Positions 4,103 through 30,582 of a stretch of 39,728 nt of DNA are shown piece after piece (position 1 is the first letter of the stretch; each line of letters begins with the position of its first letter). Made by a program: the position numbers and the translations under genes. The stretch lies in contig NZ_AOIS01000005.1 of NCBI RefSeq assembly GCF_000337495.1, positions 1 to 39,728 on the forward strand. Reading direction: 5' to 3'. The notes beneath the pieces were generated by a model. The model was not told the origin of the DNA. It did no database searches and saw only the letters and a list, made by a program, of their open reading frames with translations. This stretch comes from Haloterrigena salina JCM 13891. Lineage in GTDB: Archaea > Halobacteriota > Halobacteria > Halobacteriales > Natrialbaceae.

Positions 4103-4411
4103 AGGCGAGAGGGGAGCGACAGCCCAGGAACCACAGCAGGCGGGTCCGCGCGGCGAAAACGACGGCATCGACACACCGTGACGTTCGACCGCAGAACGGG
4201 ACCGCCGACTACCGTTCGATTCGCGGTCTCGATTTTCTCGGAGACGATGAGCACTGGCCAGTACTCGCTCGACTCACCGGAGGAAACCGGATTCTCGCTC
4301 GAGCCGGGTTTGAGTTCCGATCACGGCTATGCAGATTTTACTGTAGATACAATAATTATATTCTAGAAATAAACCTTAACAATACTGTCCACGATAGCTA
4401 CGGATGCGACC
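4103..4411 (+). other. Intergenic region with AT-rich promoter segment
   Basis: No gene is seen. The last 80 bp (about 4335-4385) are strikingly AT-rich, with TTTTACTGTAGATACAATAA followed by TTATATTC and ACCTTAAC. This fits the promoter of the beta-helix gene that starts at 4412. No hairpin terminator for the GH4 gene was recognised. Confidence 0.45.
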
Positions 4412-6812: not shown

Positions 6813-9554
6813 TTACTCGAACCCGAACTCGTACGTCCCCGATTCGACGTCGATCTCGAGGCGCTCGCCGTCCCGAACGGCCGAGACGCCGTCGGGAAGC
6901 GTCGCCGCTTCGTCGCCGTCCCAAACCGGCTCGCCGTCGACGGTCGCGACGGCGTCTTCAGTACTCGTCGGGAGGACGACCGTCGCCGACGCGTTCCACG
7001 GAATCGTGGCCTCGAGATGGAACGACTCGCTGCCGTCGTCCGTCTCGGGGTCCGTGTGCTCGCCGCGCGTCCACGAGACCGCGACGGGTCCTCGCTCGGT
7101 CGGCACCCGACCGGACGCCGACTCGAGTCCCGCCTCGGGCGGACGGATCTCGAGGCGTTCGCCCGCGAGGCCGTCGGAGCGAACGCCCAGGAGCGTCCGG
7201 AGGATGTACACCAGCACGGTCGCGCCCATAGCGTGGGACTCGCTGCGGTTGTGCCGCTGGTCGTCCGGCAGCGAGGAGTCGCGGCAGTGCCAGGTTTCCC
7301 AGGTGAACGTGCCGCCCTGCGCGATGATGTTCGCCCAGCCGTCGTCGTCGGGGTTCGTCAGCAGGTCGACGACCGCGTCGGGACGACCCGCGGTCTCGAG
7401 GGCCTCGAGCAGCCACGGCACCATCATCGGCCCCATCGACATTCCCTGGTCGGCCACGCGCTCGGCGACGGCGTCGACGCGCGCGTCGGGAACGAGACCG
7501 AACGCCAGCGGCAGCGCGTTAGCGTGCTGAGAGGCGGAGTCGCTCGCGTCGGTCGCGTCGCAGCCGTCGACGTAGCGGTCGCCCTGACGGAGACGGTCGT
7601 CGATCGCCGCCTCGAGCGCGCGCTGACGGTCGCGGTAGTGTGACCGCTCGTGGTCCGGCCGGTCGAGTTCGGCCGCGATGTCGGCCGCCCGGCCGAGCGC
7701 GCTCGTACAGAGGACGTTGACCGTGGTCCTGACGGGCCAGTCTCGGTCGTAGCCGTAGCGCATCTCCGGCGGCCAGTCGACGATCCCCTCCTCGTAGGGA
7801 CCGCCCCCGCCGCCCAAGAGGTTCGCGACGAGCCCGGTCTCGCCGTCCACGTGGCGCTCGACGTACGCCGCGATCGCCGTGATTACGGGATAGGCGCGCT
7901 CGAGCGTCGCCCGGTCGCCGGTCGTGCGGTAGTACCGCCAGACCCATTCGGGGAACGAGACCGTGAAGTCGGGGATGTCGCGCTTGCCGTCGCCGTTCGG
8001 ATAGACGGCGTTCAGCCGGCCCTCGCCCGCCCAGTACCGGTAGTGCGAGCGGCAGAACTCCGCGATCGCCTGTCGGCTCAGCGCGCGCTCCGCGAAGGCT
8101 CGCGTCGTCGTCCGCGAGACGTTGAAGCCGTCCATCAGAAACTGGCCCTTCTCGCGGGTCGGCGTGTCGACGAACTGCCCCTGACAGCCGTACAGCGCCG
8201 AGTGGCGCGCAAGGTCGAAGACCGCGTCGACCGTCTCGTCGTCGGACTCGAACGTCGCCGCCCGCTCGTCGGGGACGGCGTTGCGCGTCGCCAGCAGCCC
8301 CACCTGTTCGGGCTCGAGCTCCTCGCCCGGATCGTCGATCTGCAGGTAGCGGATGCCGAGGTAGTTGAACGGGCGAAACGTCCCCTCGCCCTCGCGCTGG
8401 ACGTACTCGTAGCGCATGTCCGTCCACTGCGTTCCTTCGGTCTCGGCGACCGAGCCGTCGTCCGCGAGCCGGTAGCCCGCTCTGAGCGCGACCCGGTGTC
8501 CGTCGGTTCCATCGGCAAAGCGCACCTCGGGAAGTCCGGCGTAGACCCGGCCGAAGTCGACCACGTACGAACCGTCCTCGAGTCGGTCCATCGAGACAGG
8601 CTCGATCGGCGACCGGACGACCTCGCTGCGCTGGGCGACGAGCCGTTCCCACGGCTCGGTCGGGTGGGTGCCGACGACGGTTGCGTAGTCCCACGCTCCC
8701 GCGTCGAATCCCGGTTCGTTCCAGCCGCGCGGGACTCGCCGAGCGTCGATTATCTCGATCGGCTCCGCGATCTCGTCGTTTCGCAGCGGGGCGTCCTCGC
8801 GCCACTCGGCCTCGCGGACGCGCCACGACCCGTCGGTGACGACGGTGCGCTCGGTCCCGTCGGCGAACGTCACCTCGAGCTGACAGATGAATCCGGGTTC
8901 GGCCGCGGGTCGCCCCTGCCCGGCGCCGTTCCAGTTGCACAACGCGCCGATCGCGTTCGCCCCCGTCTCGAGGTCGTCCGTGAGGCCGACGGTCTTGTAG
9001 TACTGGAAGTCCGGATAGGACGCCGACGGGCCGCAGTCGACCGTGCGCCCGTTGACCGACAGCTCGTATCGGTGGCTCGCGGAGACGTACGCACGGGCGC
9101 GTTCGATCTCCCCCTCGAGGGAGACCTCGCGGCGCAGATAGGTGAATTGACCGCGCTCGAACGCGCCGTCGTCCGGGCGAGAGATCCAAGATGCCTCCCA
9201 GTCGGCGGGCTCGAGCAGCCCCGTTTCCCACCGGGCCGGATCGCTCCACGCGCTCGGTTCGTCGGACTCGTCCCACACGCGAACCGCCCAGTGGTACTCG
9301 CGGCCGGACTCGAGAGGGTCGCCGTCGTAGGTCACCGCCGGCCGGTCCGACGACCGCTTGCCGGTGTCCCAGCAGTCCGCCTCGCCGGGCGAGAGTCGGT
9401 CGGGCGTCGACGCGACAAGCACTCTGAACGCGGTCTGTCGGGCCCCGCGGCGGTCGGCGTCGACCCGCCAGCGCAGGTCGGGTCTCGCGGCGTCGAGCCC
9501 GATCGGAGTCGACGCGTACTCGGTTCGAAGGGCTACTGGCTGGTTCCCTGACAT
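6813..9554 (-). CDS. GH78 alpha-L-rhamnosidase (913 aa)
   Basis: The N-terminus (LRTEYASTPIGLDAARPDLRW) and the fibronectin-like repeat ending in YHWAVRVWDE are typical of bacterial-type GH78 enzymes. Beta-domains follow (about 120-420), then the (alpha/alpha)6 catalytic barrel. At 463-476, DTPTREKG and MDG correspond to the GH78 acidic motif that carries the general acid. Around residue 750, TFTWETW corresponds to the conserved strand that carries the general base Glu, followed by the expected conserved SHAMGA. The length is in the usual 850-1000 range. It releases terminal L-rhamnose from rhamnogalacturonan, arabinogalactan or glycosides. No signal peptide was seen, so it is intracellular. 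A TTTTTACG box about 36-41 bp upstream of the start may be its TATA element. Confidence 0.92.
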   Translation of the reverse strand: MSGNQPVALRTEYASTPIGLDAARPDLRWRVDADRRGARQTAFRVLVASTPDRLSPGEADCWDTGKRSSDRPAVTYDGDPLESGREYHWAVRVWDESDEPSAWSDPARWETGLLEPADWEASWISRPDDGAFERGQFTYLRREVSLEGEIERARAYVSASHRYELSVNGRTVDCGPSASYPDFQYYKTVGLTDDLETGANAIGALCNWNGAGQGRPAAEPGFICQLEVTFADGTERTVVTDGSWRVREAEWREDAPLRNDEIAEPIEIIDARRVPRGWNEPGFDAGAWDYATVVGTHPTEPWERLVAQRSEVVRSPIEPVSMDRLEDGSYVVDFGRVYAGLPEVRFADGTDGHRVALRAGYRLADDGSVAETEGTQWTDMRYEYVQREGEGTFRPFNYLGIRYLQIDDPGEELEPEQVGLLATRNAVPDERAATFESDDETVDAVFDLARHSALYGCQGQFVDTPTREKGQFLMDGFNVSRTTTRAFAERALSRQAIAEFCRSHYRYWAGEGRLNAVYPNGDGKRDIPDFTVSFPEWVWRYYRTTGDRATLERAYPVITAIAAYVERHVDGETGLVANLLGGGGGPYEEGIVDWPPEMRYGYDRDWPVRTTVNVLCTSALGRAADIAAELDRPDHERSHYRDRQRALEAAIDDRLRQGDRYVDGCDATDASDSASQHANALPLAFGLVPDARVDAVAERVADQGMSMGPMMVPWLLEALETAGRPDAVVDLLTNPDDDGWANIIAQGGTFTWETWHCRDSSLPDDQRHNRSESHAMGATVLVYILRTLLGVRSDGLAGERLEIRPPEAGLESASGRVPTERGPVAVSWTRGEHTDPETDDGSESFHLEATIPWNASATVVLPTSTEDAVATVDGEPVWDGDEAATLPDGVSAVRDGERLEIDVESGTYEFGFE

Positions 9555-12930: not shown

Positions 12931-16131
<3,201 letters not shown>

Positions 16132-16305
16132 CGGCGGCCGTCCATCGTCTCGACGGGAGGCGGGTAGATCGACTACGACGGGTGTTGCGTCCGGGGCGAT
16201 TACTGCTACGTCGGGGGACTCGTTCGAGCGACCGAGCACTGATCCCGGTACTGGCGACGGACAGAGGATTTTTACCGGCCCGTTTCGAGTATCGAATCAC
16301 GCGCT

Positions 16306-19191
16306 ATGATAACTCACGAGCCGTCAGACGGCAGCGTGCCGATCGTCGCCGGAGAGTCGGTCGCGGACATCTACGTCGACGGGAACGATCACGAGGTCGC
16401 GACCATCGCGGCGACCGACCTCGGCGACGATATCGAGCGGGTTACGGGACGCCGGCCCGCGGTCACCGATTCGCTCGCCGAACTCTCCGAGACCGCCGTG
16501 ATCGTCGGGACGATCGGTCGCTCCGCAGGCGTCGAGCGGTGCCTGCAAGCGAGCGACGTCGATGCCGCGGCGCTGACGGACGAGCGGGAGAGTTTCGTCG
16601 TCGGAACGGTCGACGATCCGCTGCCGAGCCTCGAGTCGTGCGTGCTGATCGCCGGGAGCGATCGCCGCGGGACGGCCTACGGGGCGTACGAGTTGTCGAA
16701 GCGGATCGGCGTCTCGCCGTGGTACTGGTGGGCCGACGTGCCGACGCCCGACCGGGAAACCCTCTACGCGACCGAGGATCTCGAGCGGGCGGGACCGCCG
16801 TCGGTTCGGTACCGCGGGGTGTTCGTCAACGATGAGGACTTCGGGTTCCGCGAGTGGGCGCAGCAAACGCACGATCCGGCCACACCGGACGGCATCGGTC
16901 CGGAGACCTACGAGCGGCTGTTCGAACTGCTCTTGCGACTCAAGGCGAACACGATCTGGCCTGCGATGCACGAGGGAACGAAGTCGTTCTACCGGTGTGC
17001 GGGCAATCGCGAGGCCGCCGAACGGTACGGCATCGTCGTCGGCACCTCCCACTGCGAGCCGATGCACCGCAACAACGTCGACGAGTGGGACCGGGAGACA
17101 GACGGCGAGTGGAACTACGCGACCAACGCGGAGCGGATCCGTGAGTACTGGACCGACCGCGTCGCAGAGGTCGCCGGCCAGGAGAATCTCTTCACGGTCG
17201 GCATGCGCGGGATCCACGACTCGGGGATGCCCGGCGGCGACACCCTCGAGGAACGCGTCGACCTGCTCCAGCGGGTGATCGACGACCAGCGCGAGATCCT
17301 CGACGAACACCACGAGTCGCCGGTCGAGACCGTCCCGCAGCTATTCTGCCCATATAAGGAGACGCTCGAACTCTACCGGAACGGGCTCGAGGTGCCCGAA
17401 GACGTCTGTCTCGTCTGGCCCGACGACAACTTCGGCTACCTCCGGCGGCTGCCGACCGGCGAGGAGCGAGCGCGGTCCGGCGGCCACGGCGTCTACTACC
17501 ACCTCTCGTACTGGGGACGTCCGCACGACCACCAGTGGCTGTGTTCGGTCCCGCCGGCGCTGACCCGCGAGGAACTGCACCGAGCGTACCGCCGCGGCGT
17601 CGACACGCTCTGGATGGCAAACGTCGGCGACCTCAAGCCGGCGGAGAAAGAGACGGAGTACTTCTTCGAGTTGGCCTGGGACGTCGACGGCGTCGCGGAG
17701 CGATCGGCGACCGACTGGCTCGCCGAGTGGGCCGCCCGCGAGTTCGACCCGGCCCACGCGGACGAAATTGCCGACGTCCTCGCCGAGTACTACCGACTCG
17801 CGCTCGCCCGCAAGCCGGAACACGTCGGCTGGAACGCGGTGTACCCGAACACCGAGAAGAACGAACCGACGTTCAGCGCGGTCGATCACGGCGACGAAGC
17901 CCGGCGACGGCTCGAGGCCTACGAGCGGATCGACGAGGCGGCCGCGGCGATCCGCGAGGAACTGCCCGAGAAATACAGAACAGCGTTCTTCCACCTCGTC
18001 GAGTACCAGATCCGGTGTGCGCGAGCGATGAACGAGGGAGCCCTCGAGGCGATGCGGAGCCGGCTCTACGCGGGTCAAGGGCGGACGAGCGCAGCAGCGT
18101 ACGCGGATCGATCGCGGGCGGCGCTCGACCGGATCGACGCGGCGACGGAGCGGTACAACGCCTCGTCGAACGGCAAGTGGCGCGGGATGATGTCCGCGAG
18201 CCCGCGGGACCTGCCGGTGTTCGACCCACCGGCGACCGGGCGCGTGACCGACGATCAGGGTCCGACCCTCGAGGTCGCCGTCGAGGGAACGGCGGCCGTC
18301 GCCGGAACCGGTCCGCGAACCCGCCGACTGCCGACGATCGTGCAGGGCGTCGACCGGCCGCGGTTCGTCGACTGCTACAACCGCGGCGGGGGAACGATCG
18401 AGTGGACGGCGACGGCCGCCGACGACTGGATCGACCTCGAGCGAACGTCGGGGACGTTCGAGACGGACGAGCGGCTGTGGGTCGGCGTCGAGTGGGACGC
18501 CGCGCCGGACTCGCGGACGACCGGCCGTATTCGGATCGCGGGCGCCGGTCGGGAACTCGAGGTCGCGGTGCCGATCCGGCCGCGGGAGCGACCGACTGCG
18601 GGCGGGGTTGACGGTGATTCCGAGCCAGGTCCCAAGCGAACGCCGGTCTTCGTCGAATCGAACGGCCGCGTCGCGATCGAGGCCGACCATCCGACGACCG
18701 TCCGACAGGCGGAGACGCGCTGGGAGCCCGTCGACGGCCTCAGCCGAACGACCGGGACCGCGATGGCCGGGCGAGCAATCGACGGCCCGCGCGTCGACGC
18801 CGATGCGATCCGCGAGCGGGCGGCCCGTCTCGAGTACGACTTCGAGGCCGATGCCGGCGCCGTTCGCGTCGAAGTGCAGCTGTTGCCGACGCACGCGCCG
18901 ACCGAGTCGACACCCCACCGGTACGCGGTCGCGATCGACGGCGCCGCACCGACGGTCGTCGACTTCGACGCGAACGGCGGCGAGCACGACCCGCAGTGGC
19001 AGCGGAACGTCCTTCGCTCGAGCGTCCGTTCGACGACCGACCATGAACTCGATCGGGGCGGTCGCCACACGCTGTCGCTGTACGCGATGGATCCGAGCGT
19101 CGTCGTCGATCGGGCAGTCATCTACACTGATGACGACGCCCGCCGGTCGTACCTCGGGCCGCGAGAGACGCGGGATCGGCGACTCGAGTGA
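16306..19191 (+). CDS. GH115 alpha-glucuronidase (961 aa)
   Basis: GH115 enzymes remove alpha-1,2-linked (4-O-methyl-)glucuronic acid, usually from glucuronoxylan. Diagnostic stretches seen here: an N-terminal domain with VAGESVADIYVD and GRRGT-type turns (GSDRRGTAYGAYELSKRIGVSPWYWWADVP, 118-146), SVRYRGVFVNDEDFG (166-180), LKANTIWPAMHEGTKSF (212-228), GTSHCEPMHRNN (247-258), GVYYHLSYWGRP and LWMANVGDLKPAE. A C-terminal beta-domain (about 680-950) has the closing features of the family (VDFDANGGEHDPQWQRNVLRS). The length is typical. There is no signal peptide, so it is intracellular. TTTTTACC about 33 bp before the start may be the TATA element. Its product would be glucuronate, whose isomerase route needs the mannonate dehydratase that is broken just downstream. 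Confidence 0.9.
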   Translation: MITHEPSDGSVPIVAGESVADIYVDGNDHEVATIAATDLGDDIERVTGRRPAVTDSLAELSETAVIVGTIGRSAGVERCLQASDVDAAALTDERESFVVGTVDDPLPSLESCVLIAGSDRRGTAYGAYELSKRIGVSPWYWWADVPTPDRETLYATEDLERAGPPSVRYRGVFVNDEDFGFREWAQQTHDPATPDGIGPETYERLFELLLRLKANTIWPAMHEGTKSFYRCAGNREAAERYGIVVGTSHCEPMHRNNVDEWDRETDGEWNYATNAERIREYWTDRVAEVAGQENLFTVGMRGIHDSGMPGGDTLEERVDLLQRVIDDQREILDEHHESPVETVPQLFCPYKETLELYRNGLEVPEDVCLVWPDDNFGYLRRLPTGEERARSGGHGVYYHLSYWGRPHDHQWLCSVPPALTREELHRAYRRGVDTLWMANVGDLKPAEKETEYFFELAWDVDGVAERSATDWLAEWAAREFDPAHADEIADVLAEYYRLALARKPEHVGWNAVYPNTEKNEPTFSAVDHGDEARRRLEAYERIDEAAAAIREELPEKYRTAFFHLVEYQIRCARAMNEGALEAMRSRLYAGQGRTSAAAYADRSRAALDRIDAATERYNASSNGKWRGMMSASPRDLPVFDPPATGRVTDDQGPTLEVAVEGTAAVAGTGPRTRRLPTIVQGVDRPRFVDCYNRGGGTIEWTATAADDWIDLERTSGTFETDERLWVGVEWDAAPDSRTTGRIRIAGAGRELEVAVPIRPRERPTAGGVDGDSEPGPKRTPVFVESNGRVAIEADHPTTVRQAETRWEPVDGLSRTTGTAMAGRAIDGPRVDADAIRERAARLEYDFEADAGAVRVEVQLLPTHAPTESTPHRYAVAIDGAAPTVVDFDANGGEHDPQWQRNVLRSSVRSTTDHELDRGGRHTLSLYAMDPSVVVDRAVIYTDDDARRSYLGPRETRDRRLE

Positions 19192-23066: not shown

Positions 23067-23222
23067 ATGAAACTGATAGAAGAATCGTCTACCGCAATTG
23101 GAGAGAGCCGAACTATAAGCACCGACAGAGTAACAAGGAGTAGTGGAATAGATTTGTTGATGGAACTGTACGTACTGTCGGAACAGGTCGGGAATGATTC
23201 GGCAGAAACCAATAGCTCATGA
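23067..23222 (+). CDS. Small ORF overlapping the RNA ligase start (51 aa, hypothetical)
   Basis: This short frame begins MKLIEESSTAIGES and ends with a TGA that overlaps the ligase ATG in the sequence ATGA, the usual arrangement of translationally coupled genes. A GGAG sequence precedes the ATG by 6 nt. The residues near the end (IDLLMELYVLSEQVG) could form one amphipathic helix. No family is recognised, and the composition is less acidic than usual for this organism. It could be a real coupled peptide, a leader that sets ligase translation, or a chance frame. The ATG at 23067 is the one with the GGAG; an in-frame start exists at 23028. Confidence 0.35.
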   Translation: MKLIEESSTAIGESRTISTDRVTRSSGIDLLMELYVLSEQVGNDSAETNSS

Positions 23223-24055
23223 AGAGGTTTCCATCGATACCGCCGATCATCGACGTCGCTGACGGCTGCTTCGAGGACGGGCATCTCTGGCTGATAGAGA
23301 AGGTCGACGGGGCGCATTTCCGCTTCCAACTCCAGGGGTCGGGATTGATTCGATTCGGCGATCGGAATCGCGTCTACGACGATCCGGCTGCCGTTCCGGA
23401 GCCGTACCAGCACGCCGTCCGTCACGTGCGAACGAACCTCGAGCGAGAAGCGCTTCGGGACGCCGTCGACGACGTCGAAGCGCTCGTTTTCTTCGGCGAG
23501 GCGATGCACCGGCACACGATCGACTACGACTGGGAACGGACGCCGTCGTTCCTCGGCTTCGACGTCTGGTCGGCCCAGAAAGAACGGTTCTACCCGGTCG
23601 ATACCGTCGAGCGAATCTTCGATCAGCTCGGTCTCCACACGGTGAACATCTTCGAGCGCGAACGGCGGGCTCGAGACTTCGATCCCGACTCGTATTCCGT
23701 CCCCCAGTCTGCGTGGTACGACGGACCCGCCGAAGGAGTGATCGTCCGGAACAAACGGGGCCAGCGAGCGACGCTTCTGCATCCATCGTTTCGCGAGATC
23801 GAGGAGACGACGCCAGTCGACGCATCCGCGGCGGAGGTAGCCGAAACGTACGCGACGCAACGACGGTTCGAAACGCTCTCGAGCGAACTCGAAGACCGGG
23901 GCCGTCCCGTAACGTTCGACACGCTTTACGAGCGCGTCCTCGAGGATATCGGTCGCGAAGAACACAACCGGCTCTACCACGAGAGCGACCCGATCGACAT
24001 GAAGGCGTTCCGATCCGAAGTTAGTGCGCTAACGCGCCGATTCCTTGACGAGTGA
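23219..24055 (+). CDS. RNA ligase family protein, covalent nucleotidyltransferase (278 aa)
   Basis: The nucleotidyltransferase motifs of ATP-dependent ligases are in order. Motif I is EKVDG with the adenylation lysine K28; motif III is FFGEAM (91-96); motif IIIa is FLGFDVW (111-117); motif IV is EGVIVR (172-177). Motif V is at RATLLHPSF (183-191), where relatives usually have Lys next to the Ala; here it is Thr. A short helical C-terminal region follows. The small size and lack of an OB domain indicate the RNA_ligase (Rnl2-like) family rather than a replicative DNA ligase. It would join or repair RNA ends, or nicks in RNA/DNA hybrids. It sits beside the replication origin, convergent with orc1/cdc6, and its own upstream region holds partition-type repeats. 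The changed motif V leaves activity uncertain. Confidence 0.8.
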   Translation: MKRFPSIPPIIDVADGCFEDGHLWLIEKVDGAHFRFQLQGSGLIRFGDRNRVYDDPAAVPEPYQHAVRHVRTNLEREALRDAVDDVEALVFFGEAMHRHTIDYDWERTPSFLGFDVWSAQKERFYPVDTVERIFDQLGLHTVNIFERERRARDFDPDSYSVPQSAWYDGPAEGVIVRNKRGQRATLLHPSFREIEETTPVDASAAEVAETYATQRRFETLSSELEDRGRPVTFDTLYERVLEDIGREEHNRLYHESDPIDMKAFRSEVSALTRRFLDE

Positions 24056-24137
24056 CGGAATCTCCTAGAGACCCGCCTCGATACAGCGTGTGCTTGAGAA
24101 GGCCGTTTTGCTTGCTAACGGTTCCCTCACCCATACA

Positions 24138-24322
24138 CACCCCGAATTTCCGTCATCCATTCGGACCCCCCTCGTTTCCGTCGTTTCCGTACGCCCCACC
24201 CCGGATTTCCGTCGTTTCCGTCGTAGTTCGAACACACCCCGTCGCACCCCGGGTTTCCGTCGTCCATTCGGACCCCCCACGTTTCCGTCGTTTCCGTACG
24301 CCCCACCCCGGATTTCCGTCGT
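24138..24322. repeat. Duplicated origin-box array behind the orc gene (nine TTTCCGT cores)
   Basis: A unit of about 78 bp occurs twice at a 107-bp offset (24138-24215 and 24245-24322). The inner 60 bp (24156-24215 and 24263-24322) differ at one position. Each unit has four TTTCCGT cores preceded by C-rich runs such as ACCCCCC or CCCCACCCC; one more core lies between the units. All cores have the same orientation. They match the ACCCCACGTTTCCGTCGTAA boxes upstream of orc, so they are likely Orc1/Cdc6 binding sites. Confidence 0.75.
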
Positions 24323-24348
24323 ATATTCTTGTTTGATATTCTGGAAAT

Positions 24349-25581
24349 TTATTCGTCATCCCAGTTCTGCATTCGGCTATCCTCCAGAATGGTCTCGCGG
24401 ACGACCTGCGGATCCTCGATGAGCCGGTTCTGCAGATGAATTCCGCCTGCGCTCCCCTTGTTGATCTTCTCGATCTCGAGGACGCCGAGAAACGCCTGCT
24501 CTTTCAGGATGTCTCGGAACCGGCGAACCGAGAGAATATCCATATCGAGGTGTTCGCAGATGCGCTCGTACTGGTCGTACACGCGACTCGTGAGGAAGGC
24601 GTCGTCGTCGGAGTTGACGCTGAGTTCGGTCAACGCGAGCAGCGCGGCCTTCGCCTGGGTTGGCGCACCGTTGACGAGTTCCCGAAAGCGGTCCTTTTCG
24701 GCGTGTTGTTGGGCCTGCCGGACGTGTTTCTCTCGGACTATCTCGGCGCCGTCCTCGTAGGCGACCTCGCCGGCGTGGCGCAGAATATCGATGGCCTTCC
24801 GCGCGTCGCCGTGTTCCTGGGCGGCGAACGCGGCGGACAGCGGAATCACATCGTCGGACAGAACCCCGTCCTGAAACGCGTCCGCACGATTGAGCATGAT
24901 CTCGCGGAGCTGGTTCGCGTCGTAGGGTTTGAAGAACAGTTCCTTGTGCTGGAAGCTGCTCTTGACGCGTTCGTTCGTATTATCGACGTACTGGATCTTG
25001 TTGCTGATCGCGATGACGCCGATACTACAGTCGATCTTCCCCGCTTCCTCGGCCCGCGAGAGTTTCATGAGGAGACTGTCGTCGTTCATCAGATCGATCT
25101 CGTCGAGGATGATGATCGCGGAGTCGAACTGCGCGTCGAGCGTTTTCCAGAGCAGTTTGTAGTATTTCGACGTGCTGAGACCGGTATGCGGGACGGTGAT
25201 CTCGGTAACGGATTCGTCGTTTAACTTCGCGGCGAGAGAAGAGATCGCCTGCGTTTCCGTATTATCTTCAGCGCAGTCGATATACGCCGTTCCGATCGTG
25301 ACACCCTCCTGAGCCGCACTTTGTGCGCGTTGACAGACGTGCCTCGAGACCAACGACTTTCCCGTTCCCGTCTTCCCGTAGATCATCACGTTTTCCGGGG
25401 AGTACCCGTGAACTGCGCCGTTCAGACGTTTCGCTAGCTTCGAGATCTCCTCATCGCGCCCGACGATTCGATCGGCTTCGGGAACGTGACCGATTTTCAA
25501 GAGATCCTTGTTCGAGAAGATCCGATGCCCTGATTCGAAGAGCGGATCGTCGACGGAATCGGACGAGGAGTCGGGTGTCAT
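24349..25581 (-). CDS. orc1/cdc6: Orc1/Cdc6 replication initiator (410 aa)
   Basis: This is an AAA+ origin-binding ATPase. The Walker A loop is GKTGTGKS (69-76) within MIYGKTGTGKSLVSRH; Walker B is IIILDEID (156-163). Sensor 1 lies near VIAISNK and sensor 2 near GDARKAIDILRHAGE. A C-terminal winged-helix DNA-binding domain follows (about 310-400, LSVRRFRDILKEQAFLGVLE). The length is typical for haloarchaeal Orc proteins. It should bind the ORB-like repeats on either side and start replication of this replicon. TTTTATAC (25611-25618, minus sense) lies 30 bp before the start, and an ORB-like box begins only 15 bp beyond it, so self-repression is plausible. Confidence 0.95.
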   Translation of the reverse strand: MTPDSSSDSVDDPLFESGHRIFSNKDLLKIGHVPEADRIVGRDEEISKLAKRLNGAVHGYSPENVMIYGKTGTGKSLVSRHVCQRAQSAAQEGVTIGTAYIDCAEDNTETQAISSLAAKLNDESVTEITVPHTGLSTSKYYKLLWKTLDAQFDSAIIILDEIDLMNDDSLLMKLSRAEEAGKIDCSIGVIAISNKIQYVDNTNERVKSSFQHKELFFKPYDANQLREIMLNRADAFQDGVLSDDVIPLSAAFAAQEHGDARKAIDILRHAGEVAYEDGAEIVREKHVRQAQQHAEKDRFRELVNGAPTQAKAALLALTELSVNSDDDAFLTSRVYDQYERICEHLDMDILSVRRFRDILKEQAFLGVLEIEKINKGSAGGIHLQNRLIEDPQVVRETILEDSRMQNWDDE

Positions 25582-25610
25582 TCGATAGGAAACGATGTGA
25601 GCGGTAGGAG

Positions 25611-25618
25611 TATAAAAC
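25611..25618 (-). promoter_or_regulatory. TATA box of orc1/cdc6
   Basis: GTTTTATA (minus sense) is 30-37 bp before the ATG at 25581. The nearest ORB-like box begins at 25633, within the region where a bound initiator would block the promoter. Confidence 0.6.
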
Positions 25619-25632
25619 TAGTGGGGAGGCCC

Positions 25633-25652
25633 ACCCCACGTTTCCGTCGTAA
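25633..25652 (+). repeat. ORB-like box 1
   Basis: ACCCCACGTTTCCGTCGTAA, identical to box 2 and adjacent to the orc promoter. Confidence 0.8.
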
Positions 25653-25715
25653 TTCTACTGAATACCTGGCTTAGAGAGTTTGGAAAGAGGGAATAAGACA
25701 GTTGATAGTATAACC

Positions 25716-25740
25716 GTATTTCCGACGTAGATCGGAATAC
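25716..25740. repeat. Near-perfect dyad inside the origin
   Basis: GTATTTCCGA and TCGGAATAC face each other across a 5-6 bp spacer, with one extra T in the left arm. It carries a TTTCC core but lacks the C-rich extension of the main boxes. Confidence 0.4.
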
Positions 25741-25795
25741 CGCCGATAACGGGACGGTAGAGACGATAGAGAGAGAAGAGGACGCTCACCCCCAC

Positions 25796-25815
25796 ACCCC
25801 ACGTTTCCGTCGTAA
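25796..25815 (+). repeat. ORB-like box 2
   Basis: ACCCCACGTTTCCGTCGTAA, preceded by CACCCCCAC. It is the left border of the putative unwinding element. Confidence 0.8.
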
Positions 25816-26109
25816 CTCGATGAGAGGGAGTGGTGTGGAGTTGAAGCGATCGTTCGGAGGGAGATTTTTACGGATTACTCGCTAGATACCGGTGTTATCC
25901 ACCAAAGACAGCTACGGAAAGGAGAAGTTAGCCAACCTCTATTTCGACCGACGAAACGAAGAACTACCGTTTCGTCAATAAACGAAGTTAGCTTAGTGGA
26001 CTATAGTCAATCTAACTACTTCAATCTAGGTATTGGAAGCAGCTGCCGCCATTCAAGAACCGGTAACATGATCCGTTATCTGCACACCCCTGCCTCCGTT
26101 CGTGGAGAA

Positions 26110-26126
26110 ACGACGGAAACGTGGGG
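26110..26126 (-). repeat. ORB-like box 3 (inverted)
   Basis: ACGACGGAAACGTGGGG is the exact reverse complement of the box core. It is followed by a longer G-run (GGTGGGGG). It is the right border of the putative unwinding element. Confidence 0.8.
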
Positions 26127-26174
26127 GGTGGGGGTTCACCTCTGTTCTCAGCACCCCTTCGGTTCCCTCTCGAT

Positions 26175-26197
26175 ACGTCGGAAACGTGGGGTGGGTG
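26175..26197 (-). repeat. ORB-like box 4 (inverted, one change)
   Basis: ACGTCGGAAACGTGGGG followed by TGGGTG. Compared with box 3 it has TCGG for ACGG in the outer arm. Confidence 0.75.
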
Positions 26198-29706: not shown

Positions 29707-30582
29707 ATGCTCTCGTACACCGTTTACAGCGAAGCTGGAGGCGTCGGGAAATCGTCCCTCACAGCGAATCTCGCTGCCGCGCACGCTCGAGCGGGACTCG
29801 ACGTTCTCGTCGCCCCGTTGGATCCCCAGGACGGCGACCTCAGCCGACTGCTCGGCGTCGACGACGAGCGCGCCGATCACGAAGCCGACAACCTCGTCCG
29901 CCACATGGTCGGCAGTCCCCGCGGATCGTTCGACGATTTAATCCGGTCCGCCGAAGGGATCGACGTCATTCCGGAACACAATCTGCTCTCGGACCTCTCC
30001 GATTTCCTCACGCGCGAAAAACAGCAAGCCGAGAAGCTCGGTGACGCATACAACATCTACGCCCAACTCCAGCGCGTTCTTCAGGAAGCTGGCATCGCCG
30101 AGCAGTACGACGTTCTGATCTGTGACCCGCCGGCGACCGAATCGGATCACCTCTACAACGCGATTTATGCCACGCGGAACCTCGTGATTCCGGTCGAGCC
30201 CTCCGCGAAGGGCGAAGCCTCCGTCGACGGCCTTCAGCAGCTCGCGACGAACTTCGCCGACCGGATGGGTATCGAGGTCGGCGTCCTCGCCGCGGTGCCG
30301 AACGGGTTCAAGGGAACGAACGACCAGGCGGAACTCCTCGAGGAAATCTCGTTCCCGACGCCCGAGGTAATCGGCGACCGAACGTCGCTGATGGAAGGCT
30401 GCTGGAAGCAGCAGTGCTCGGCGTTCACGTACCAGCGCGAGCACCGCGACTACCCGCGAGATCACGAACTCGAGACGCTCGCCCAGTTCGATCGTCTCGC
30501 CCGGTATCTCGAGGAACAACGCGGAATCGAAGCGCCGAACCCACCCGAACCCGGCGCGCTCGAGGACGAGGTGACAGCATGA
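29707..30582 (+). CDS. parA: ParA-family partition ATPase (291 aa)
   Basis: This is a P-loop partition ATPase. The deviant Walker A region reads SEAGGVGKSS (8-17): the usual signature Lys before GGVGK is Ala, which I recall as typical of a haloarchaeal plasmid ParA group. Walker A' is LDPQDGDLSRLLG (37-50), and Walker B is DVLICDPPATESDHL. There is no N-terminal HTH domain, so DNA recognition is probably left to the partner. The gene follows the iteron array and overlaps the next gene by ATGA, giving a two-gene par operon. It should pull or space copies of this replicon before division. CTTATTTG about 40 bp upstream is the best TATA candidate. Confidence 0.9.
   Translation: MLSYTVYSEAGGVGKSSLTANLAAAHARAGLDVLVAPLDPQDGDLSRLLGVDDERADHEADNLVRHMVGSPRGSFDDLIRSAEGIDVIPEHNLLSDLSDFLTREKQQAEKLGDAYNIYAQLQRVLQEAGIAEQYDVLICDPPATESDHLYNAIYATRNLVIPVEPSAKGEASVDGLQQLATNFADRMGIEVGVLAAVPNGFKGTNDQAELLEEISFPTPEVIGDRTSLMEGCWKQQCSAFTYQREHRDYPRDHELETLAQFDRLARYLEEQRGIEAPNPPEPGALEDEVTA

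Follow-up and report, generated by a model that had tools for sequence, protein, structure and literature searches.

The orc1/cdc6 gene of a Haloterrigena replicon is enclosed by boxes of one type: on its promoter side they make up a candidate origin of the usual haloarchaeal layout, and directly downstream they form an array in which every box points the same way. In its strict form the box occurs at no other place in the genome, and the downstream array is kept in nearly all orthologous loci. We conclude that the array is a real and conserved feature, for which a known type of mechanism offers a good explanation. The reading that we prefer, and hold to be probable though by no means settled, is that the array exerts negative control by titration of the initiator Orc4, perhaps together with handcuffing. 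The novelty is modest, and lies in the array being a standing part of a widespread family of plasmid origins and in its polarity being biased across families.

The window, by which we mean the whole stretch of 39,728 nucleotides that was analysed, comes from a Haloterrigena with a genome of 4.84 Mb. Synteny links the locus to plasmid pHTS220 of Haloterrigena salifodinae, whose gene order it repeats (RNA ligase, orc, isocitrate lyase/PEP mutase family, ParA). The window therefore most probably belongs to a Haloterrigena replicon like pHTS220. The RNA ligase family gene (23219-24055, plus strand) is convergent with orc, and the gene for the ParA family ATPase (29707-30582, plus strand) belongs to the neighbourhood shared with pHTS220. 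Neighbouring genes at 12937-19191 encode a glycoside hydrolase of family 2 and one of family 115, which suggests that the breakdown of sugar polymers is encoded on the replicon.

The initiator gene (24349-25581, minus strand) encodes a protein of 410 amino acids and is complete, with both the AAA+ domain and the C-terminal winged helix. The best named relatives of the protein are the Orc proteins of pHTS220 (99% identity) and H. turkmenica pHTUR01 (98%), and Orc4 of Halobacterium pNRC200 (93%). With an Orc at least 75% identical to that of pNRC200 and with boxes of the type CCCCNNNTTTCCGWCGT, the locus is a plasmid origin of the Orc4 type. It is not oriC1 with its universally conserved Orc (cdc6A/orc7), because its distribution is patchy (63/391 genomes) and its closest relatives are plasmid Orc4 proteins; nor is the initiator of the RepA type that goes with incA in P1, since it is an Orc1/Cdc6. 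On contig C17 of the same genome there is an Orc (L013/L015) that is of the oriC1 type by similarity, with a match that is split by about 160 extra residues inside one open frame. Ahead of our gene, about 29 nt from the start codon, the sequence reads as a TATA-like stretch, AGTTTTATAC (25610-25619, minus strand), which is only 15 nt from the nearest origin box and makes autoregulation of orc plausible.

On the promoter side of orc, which starts at 25581 on the minus strand, two direct and two inverted boxes enclose an AT-richer stretch, with positions as given in the original prediction. Both direct boxes are CCCCACGTTTCCGTCGT on the plus strand, one proximal to the promoter (25634-25650, at about -69 in 67/74 orthologues) and one in the gene-side arm (25797-25813), while the distal arm has the inverted boxes CCCCACGTTTCCGTCGT (26110-26126) and CCCCACGTTTCCGACGT (26175-26191) on the minus strand. 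A fifth box, AACCGTATTTCCGACGT, which has no G-string and had been overlooked, is found at 25712-25728 (plus strand) and sits in the same place (-147) in 67/74 orthologues. The stretch between the inverted sets, 25818-26105, is the presumed unwinding element; its AT content is 52%, with a best 60-mer of 68% at 25975, compared with 37% for the window. Inverted G-string boxes that flank an AT-rich stretch beside an orc gene are what is seen at haloarchaeal origins adjacent to orc/cdc6, and, judging by close relatives and by what is generally known of ORBs, we infer that a haloarchaeal plasmid of the Orc4 type has its origin here. Orc4 would then bind the inverted boxes on either side of the AT-rich region (25.82-26.11 kb), where replication would start.

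The downstream array (24128-24322, plus strand) lies in the gap between the stop codon of orc and that of the RNA ligase gene, which converges on it. It had been predicted that nine TTTCCGT cores in one orientation are found on the 3' side of orc, and both the count and the polarity hold: there are exactly nine, all on the plus strand. Six of them are full boxes of the form CCCC-NNN-TTTCCGT (24140-24156, 24168-24184, 24199-24215, 24247-24263, 24275-24291 and 24306-24322) and three are half-cores without the G-string (24184-24190, 24215-24221 and 24291-24297). Part of the array is a tandem duplication, in which 88 nt at 24128-24215 return at 24235-24322 with a spacing of 107 bp and 91% identity. 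Inverted partner boxes and an AT-rich element were looked for within the array and neither was found, so it is a cluster of the origin's own boxes, immediately downstream of orc and without origin features of its own, which is the arrangement known from oriC2D of Haloarcula hispanica.

Chance or low-complexity repeats are excluded as the source of the boxes by observed and expected counts in the window, 9 against 0.03 for CCCCNNNTTTCCGT and 9 against 0.26 for TTTCCGTCGT, as well as by the whole-genome count of the strict box, CCCCNNNTTTCCGTCGT, which occurs 8 times in 4.84 Mb, every time at this locus, and 0 times as a reversed control pattern. Copies of the array at unrelated loci that lack an orc gene had been named beforehand as a finding that would refute the prediction, and by the strict box there are none in this genome. 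A relaxed box pattern, searched in 41 genomes, gives 7-14 matches where an Orc4 orthologue of at least 76% identity is present and 0-2 in the other genomes. Elsewhere, a 5404-base contig of Natronococcus jeotgali (L264), too short for context, has an orphan four-box array of the Orc4 type with the usual spacing (4294-4410) and no orc. At another locus (L265, 3174-3254) two Orc4-type boxes 65 nt apart, resembling the Orc4 distal arm, lie beside a different orc (36% identical) and are a possible remnant of recombination between origins.

We compared 74 distinct orthologous loci, with an Orc of at least 75% identity, and found downstream boxes in 72 of them. There are 3-11 boxes in each array, exactly four in 46 of the 72, and the first mostly lies 25-28 nt past the orc stop codon. 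All boxes share one orientation (343/343). Spacings of 31, 28 and 27 nt are common and do not make up a single phase, for which reason helical phasing was dropped as an explanation. Haloterrigena and its near relatives have 6-8 boxes, following the duplication, where four is the common form. The gene next downstream varies among the orthologues (RNA ligase, DNA polymerase B, VapB, amino acid permease and others) and the array stays constant, which excludes that it belongs to this neighbour. In one of the two exceptions, L079 of Halorussus amylolyticus (7222-8327), a TnpB-type element has come between the Orc4 gene and the array, which survives at a displacement of about 0.9 kb; contact with the orc gene is thus not needed. 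The other, L244, has no downstream array, and neither has a Halobacterium plasmid with a truncated orc4. The bases of the boxes are less variable than the spacers (p=0.002) and synonymous sites (p=3e-6), which is supportive of conservation and not strong, as it comes from 14 closely related sequences of the common four-box layout.

The array was also sought in seven relatives at 62-70% identity and was absent from all of them. These relatives are placed outside the Orc4 clade in the tree, which makes a single gain of the array, within the Orc4 clade, probable; those at 62-63% identity have, in place of the array, additional boxes in the gene-side arm of their origin. Orc4-type origins are present in 63/391 genomes and 28/87 genera, at a cut-off (E<=1e-150) that also lets in the relatives at 62-70%. 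The patchy distribution, with orthologues that mostly are about 93% identical across families, points to horizontal spread of the Orc4 origin.

The closest tested counterpart in layout is oriC2D of H. hispanica, where 11 ORBs downstream of cdc6E have no origin activity and were shown by genetics to restrain oriC2, and can be deleted only if oriC2 is deleted too; the plasmid level falls in a graded way with the number of boxes, and titration of Cdc6E was proposed by the authors, who also noted that many other orc genes are followed by ORBs (PMC3936714, 2013). In both systems the origin is upstream of orc, an ORB-rich cluster that is not an origin lies directly downstream, and the same box is used on both sides. 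The Orc families are however different. The likely cdc6E homologue of H. lacusprofundi (L273, three downstream boxes), which was identified by box count and map position and used here instead of the H. hispanica protein, is only about 34% identical to the Orc of the window, which means that the two loci are alike in layout without being orthologous. Moreover, oriC2 lies on the chromosome and is limited to few genera, whereas Orc4 origins are mostly on plasmids and are spread over the order. True counterparts are instead the Orc4 origins of pNRC200, pHLAC01, pHTUR01, pHTS220 and others, with an orthologous initiator, the same upstream layout and the same one-orientation array downstream.

In the bacterial plasmids P1 (oriR-repA-incA) and F (ori2-repE-incC) the initiator gene is likewise flanked by origin repeats upstream and control repeats downstream. 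Their initiators and repeats are unrelated to the Orc4 system, so the likeness is one of layout and probable logic and not of kinship. Extra initiator sites are used in the same way in bacterial iteron replicons, and titration and handcuffing have both been described for ori2-inc of Vibrio cholerae (PMC6090056). Initiation is lowered by titration also at E. coli datA, which is far from oriC, while the Orc4 array adjoins the initiator gene and is the sole cluster outside the origin. That boxes flank orc genes on both sides was reported in a 2012 survey, with about ten cases, and the main text of that survey does not name the Orc4 loci of pNRC200, pHLAC01 and pHTUR01 (PMC3528665). The architecture is thus already known, and judging from the open-access papers that we searched it is the family-wide conservation of the array and the bias in its polarity that appear to be new.

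We hypothesize, from what is known of oriC2D, that the role of the array is a negative one. It would bind the same Orc4 as the origin without being able to start replication, reduce the free Orc4 available to the origin, and perhaps also be held to the origin by bound Orc4, and initiation and copy number would be limited by the lowered free Orc4 or by the handcuffing. In favour of titration, the array and the origin are built from the same box, which in its strict form is found nowhere else in the genome, and the box accompanies the Orc4 gene across the 41 genomes. Of the possible roles raised in the original prediction, titration and copy control is the best supported, although it is not a new idea after the reports of 2012 and 2013. 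Against a strict form of it are cells with two Orc4 origins: Halorubrum lacusprofundi has them on two replicons, with initiators that are 97.6% identical (L234 and L267), and Halorussus vallis has two identical ones on a single plasmid (L262 and L263). Strict cross-titration would disfavour such coexistence unless some of the origins are dormant. In Halobacterium NRC-1 orc4 is dispensable (PMC1906834), and the replicon may there be carried by another origin. Taken together, this suggests either that some copies are dormant or that cross-titration is mild. A fixed polarity is also superfluous for a simple sponge, and may be a mere result of tandem growth. The absence of the array from the orthologue L244 likewise counts against the titration reading.

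That the array could be a positive part of the origin, extending the gene-side arm as an enhancer or a second start site and so raising local Orc4 or aiding the loading of the helicase, is rather unlikely. Its boxes are oriented like those of the gene-side arm, and the extra boxes of the 62-63% relatives look as though sites had been relocated. But an inverted partner and an AT-rich element are absent downstream, for which a second origin was rejected as the leading reading, and oriC2D, the tested relative in layout, has no origin activity by itself and lowers the plasmid level (PMC3936714). The second start site that was suggested for the array is disfavoured on these grounds, as well as by the single orientation of all 343 boxes. 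To about the same degree we doubt that Orc4, bound just past the orc stop inside the convergent pair, is a barrier that blocks read-through both ways and insulates the expression of orc. The short distance to the stop codon in most orthologues would suit a barrier, as would the many arrays that occupy the roughly 140 nt by which orc4 is separated from a convergent polymerase B gene, but the array is also kept where the downstream gene is co-directional or distant and where the TnpB-type element parts it from orc; up to 11 boxes exceed the needs of a barrier, and arrays in other orc families stretch across 800 nt.

It is less probable still that the array is a relic, a neutral repeat that grew by duplication of origin boxes and is carried without function. 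Tandem duplication accounts for the single orientation and the variable number, and with mostly about 93% identical orthologues in a patchy set of genomes (63/391) the conservation may largely be recent common descent. On the other hand, there is less variation at the bases of the boxes than in the spacers or at synonymous sites, the array is retained in relatives at 76% and 83% despite altered spacing, and several unrelated orc families have arrays of private boxes. A centromere-like role, with the Orc4-coated array as partition site for the nearby ParA, is hardly credible; the window does have a ParA family gene at a distance of 4 kb, and at some other loci there is one close to orc, yet most Orc4 loci have none beside the array, and the array box is the origin box, which has no known link to partition.

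Other orc genes of the same genome have private downstream arrays, on contigs C58 (TTTCACTCGACACCTGGGGT, 15 in 800 nt), C57 (ATTCATCTCGCACACGGGGT, 6) and C37 (TTTCACTGAAAACGAGGGG, 3), which excludes that one array is common to all orc genes of the cell. The array on C58 (L004, 2712-3500) is larger than ours, with its 15 boxes of another sequence in one orientation behind a different orc. The general statement that boxes are mainly on the promoter side is right, but the Orc4 family and several other orc families are standing exceptions. A de novo survey of boxes, which covered 220 distinct Orc proteins from 34 families, revealed downstream arrays of one orientation, their G-strings directed away from the gene, in seven unrelated families (those of the Orc4, L004, L007, L008, L175, L183 and L273 types), and one family of mixed polarity, with two plus and three minus loci. 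Arrays at L028 and L041 were left out, as they have no upstream member and resemble unrelated tandem repeats. L010 seems to have a true downstream origin with inverted pairs, unlike the arrays of one orientation. One could imagine a rule by which, whatever the box sequence, the G-strings point away from the gene and the cores toward the origin, and the array would do more than soak up Orc, being a polar device such as an oriented assembly of Orc paired to the gene-side arm of the origin; we find this unlikely, but somewhat less so than the alternatives above. Seven families against none gives p=0.016, and seven against one or two gives 0.07-0.18, so the bias across families is suggestive only. 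We do not accept polarity as a law, because one family has loci of both signs and because arrays that grow by duplication keep their polarity for free.

How archaeal replicons control their copy number is poorly understood, and the idea of initiator titration in haloarchaea rests, in the open-access papers that we searched, on a single chromosomal case, oriC2D. The Orc4 locus has a layout of that kind built into a widespread haloarchaeal plasmid origin, and is in layout an archaeal counterpart of the P1 and F iteron plasmids. The near-identical Orc4 origins that share a cell in H. lacusprofundi and Halorussus vallis raise the question of how cross-titration is avoided, and the natural variants of the array, with 3 to 11 boxes, one insertion and one loss, make both dose and polarity directly testable.
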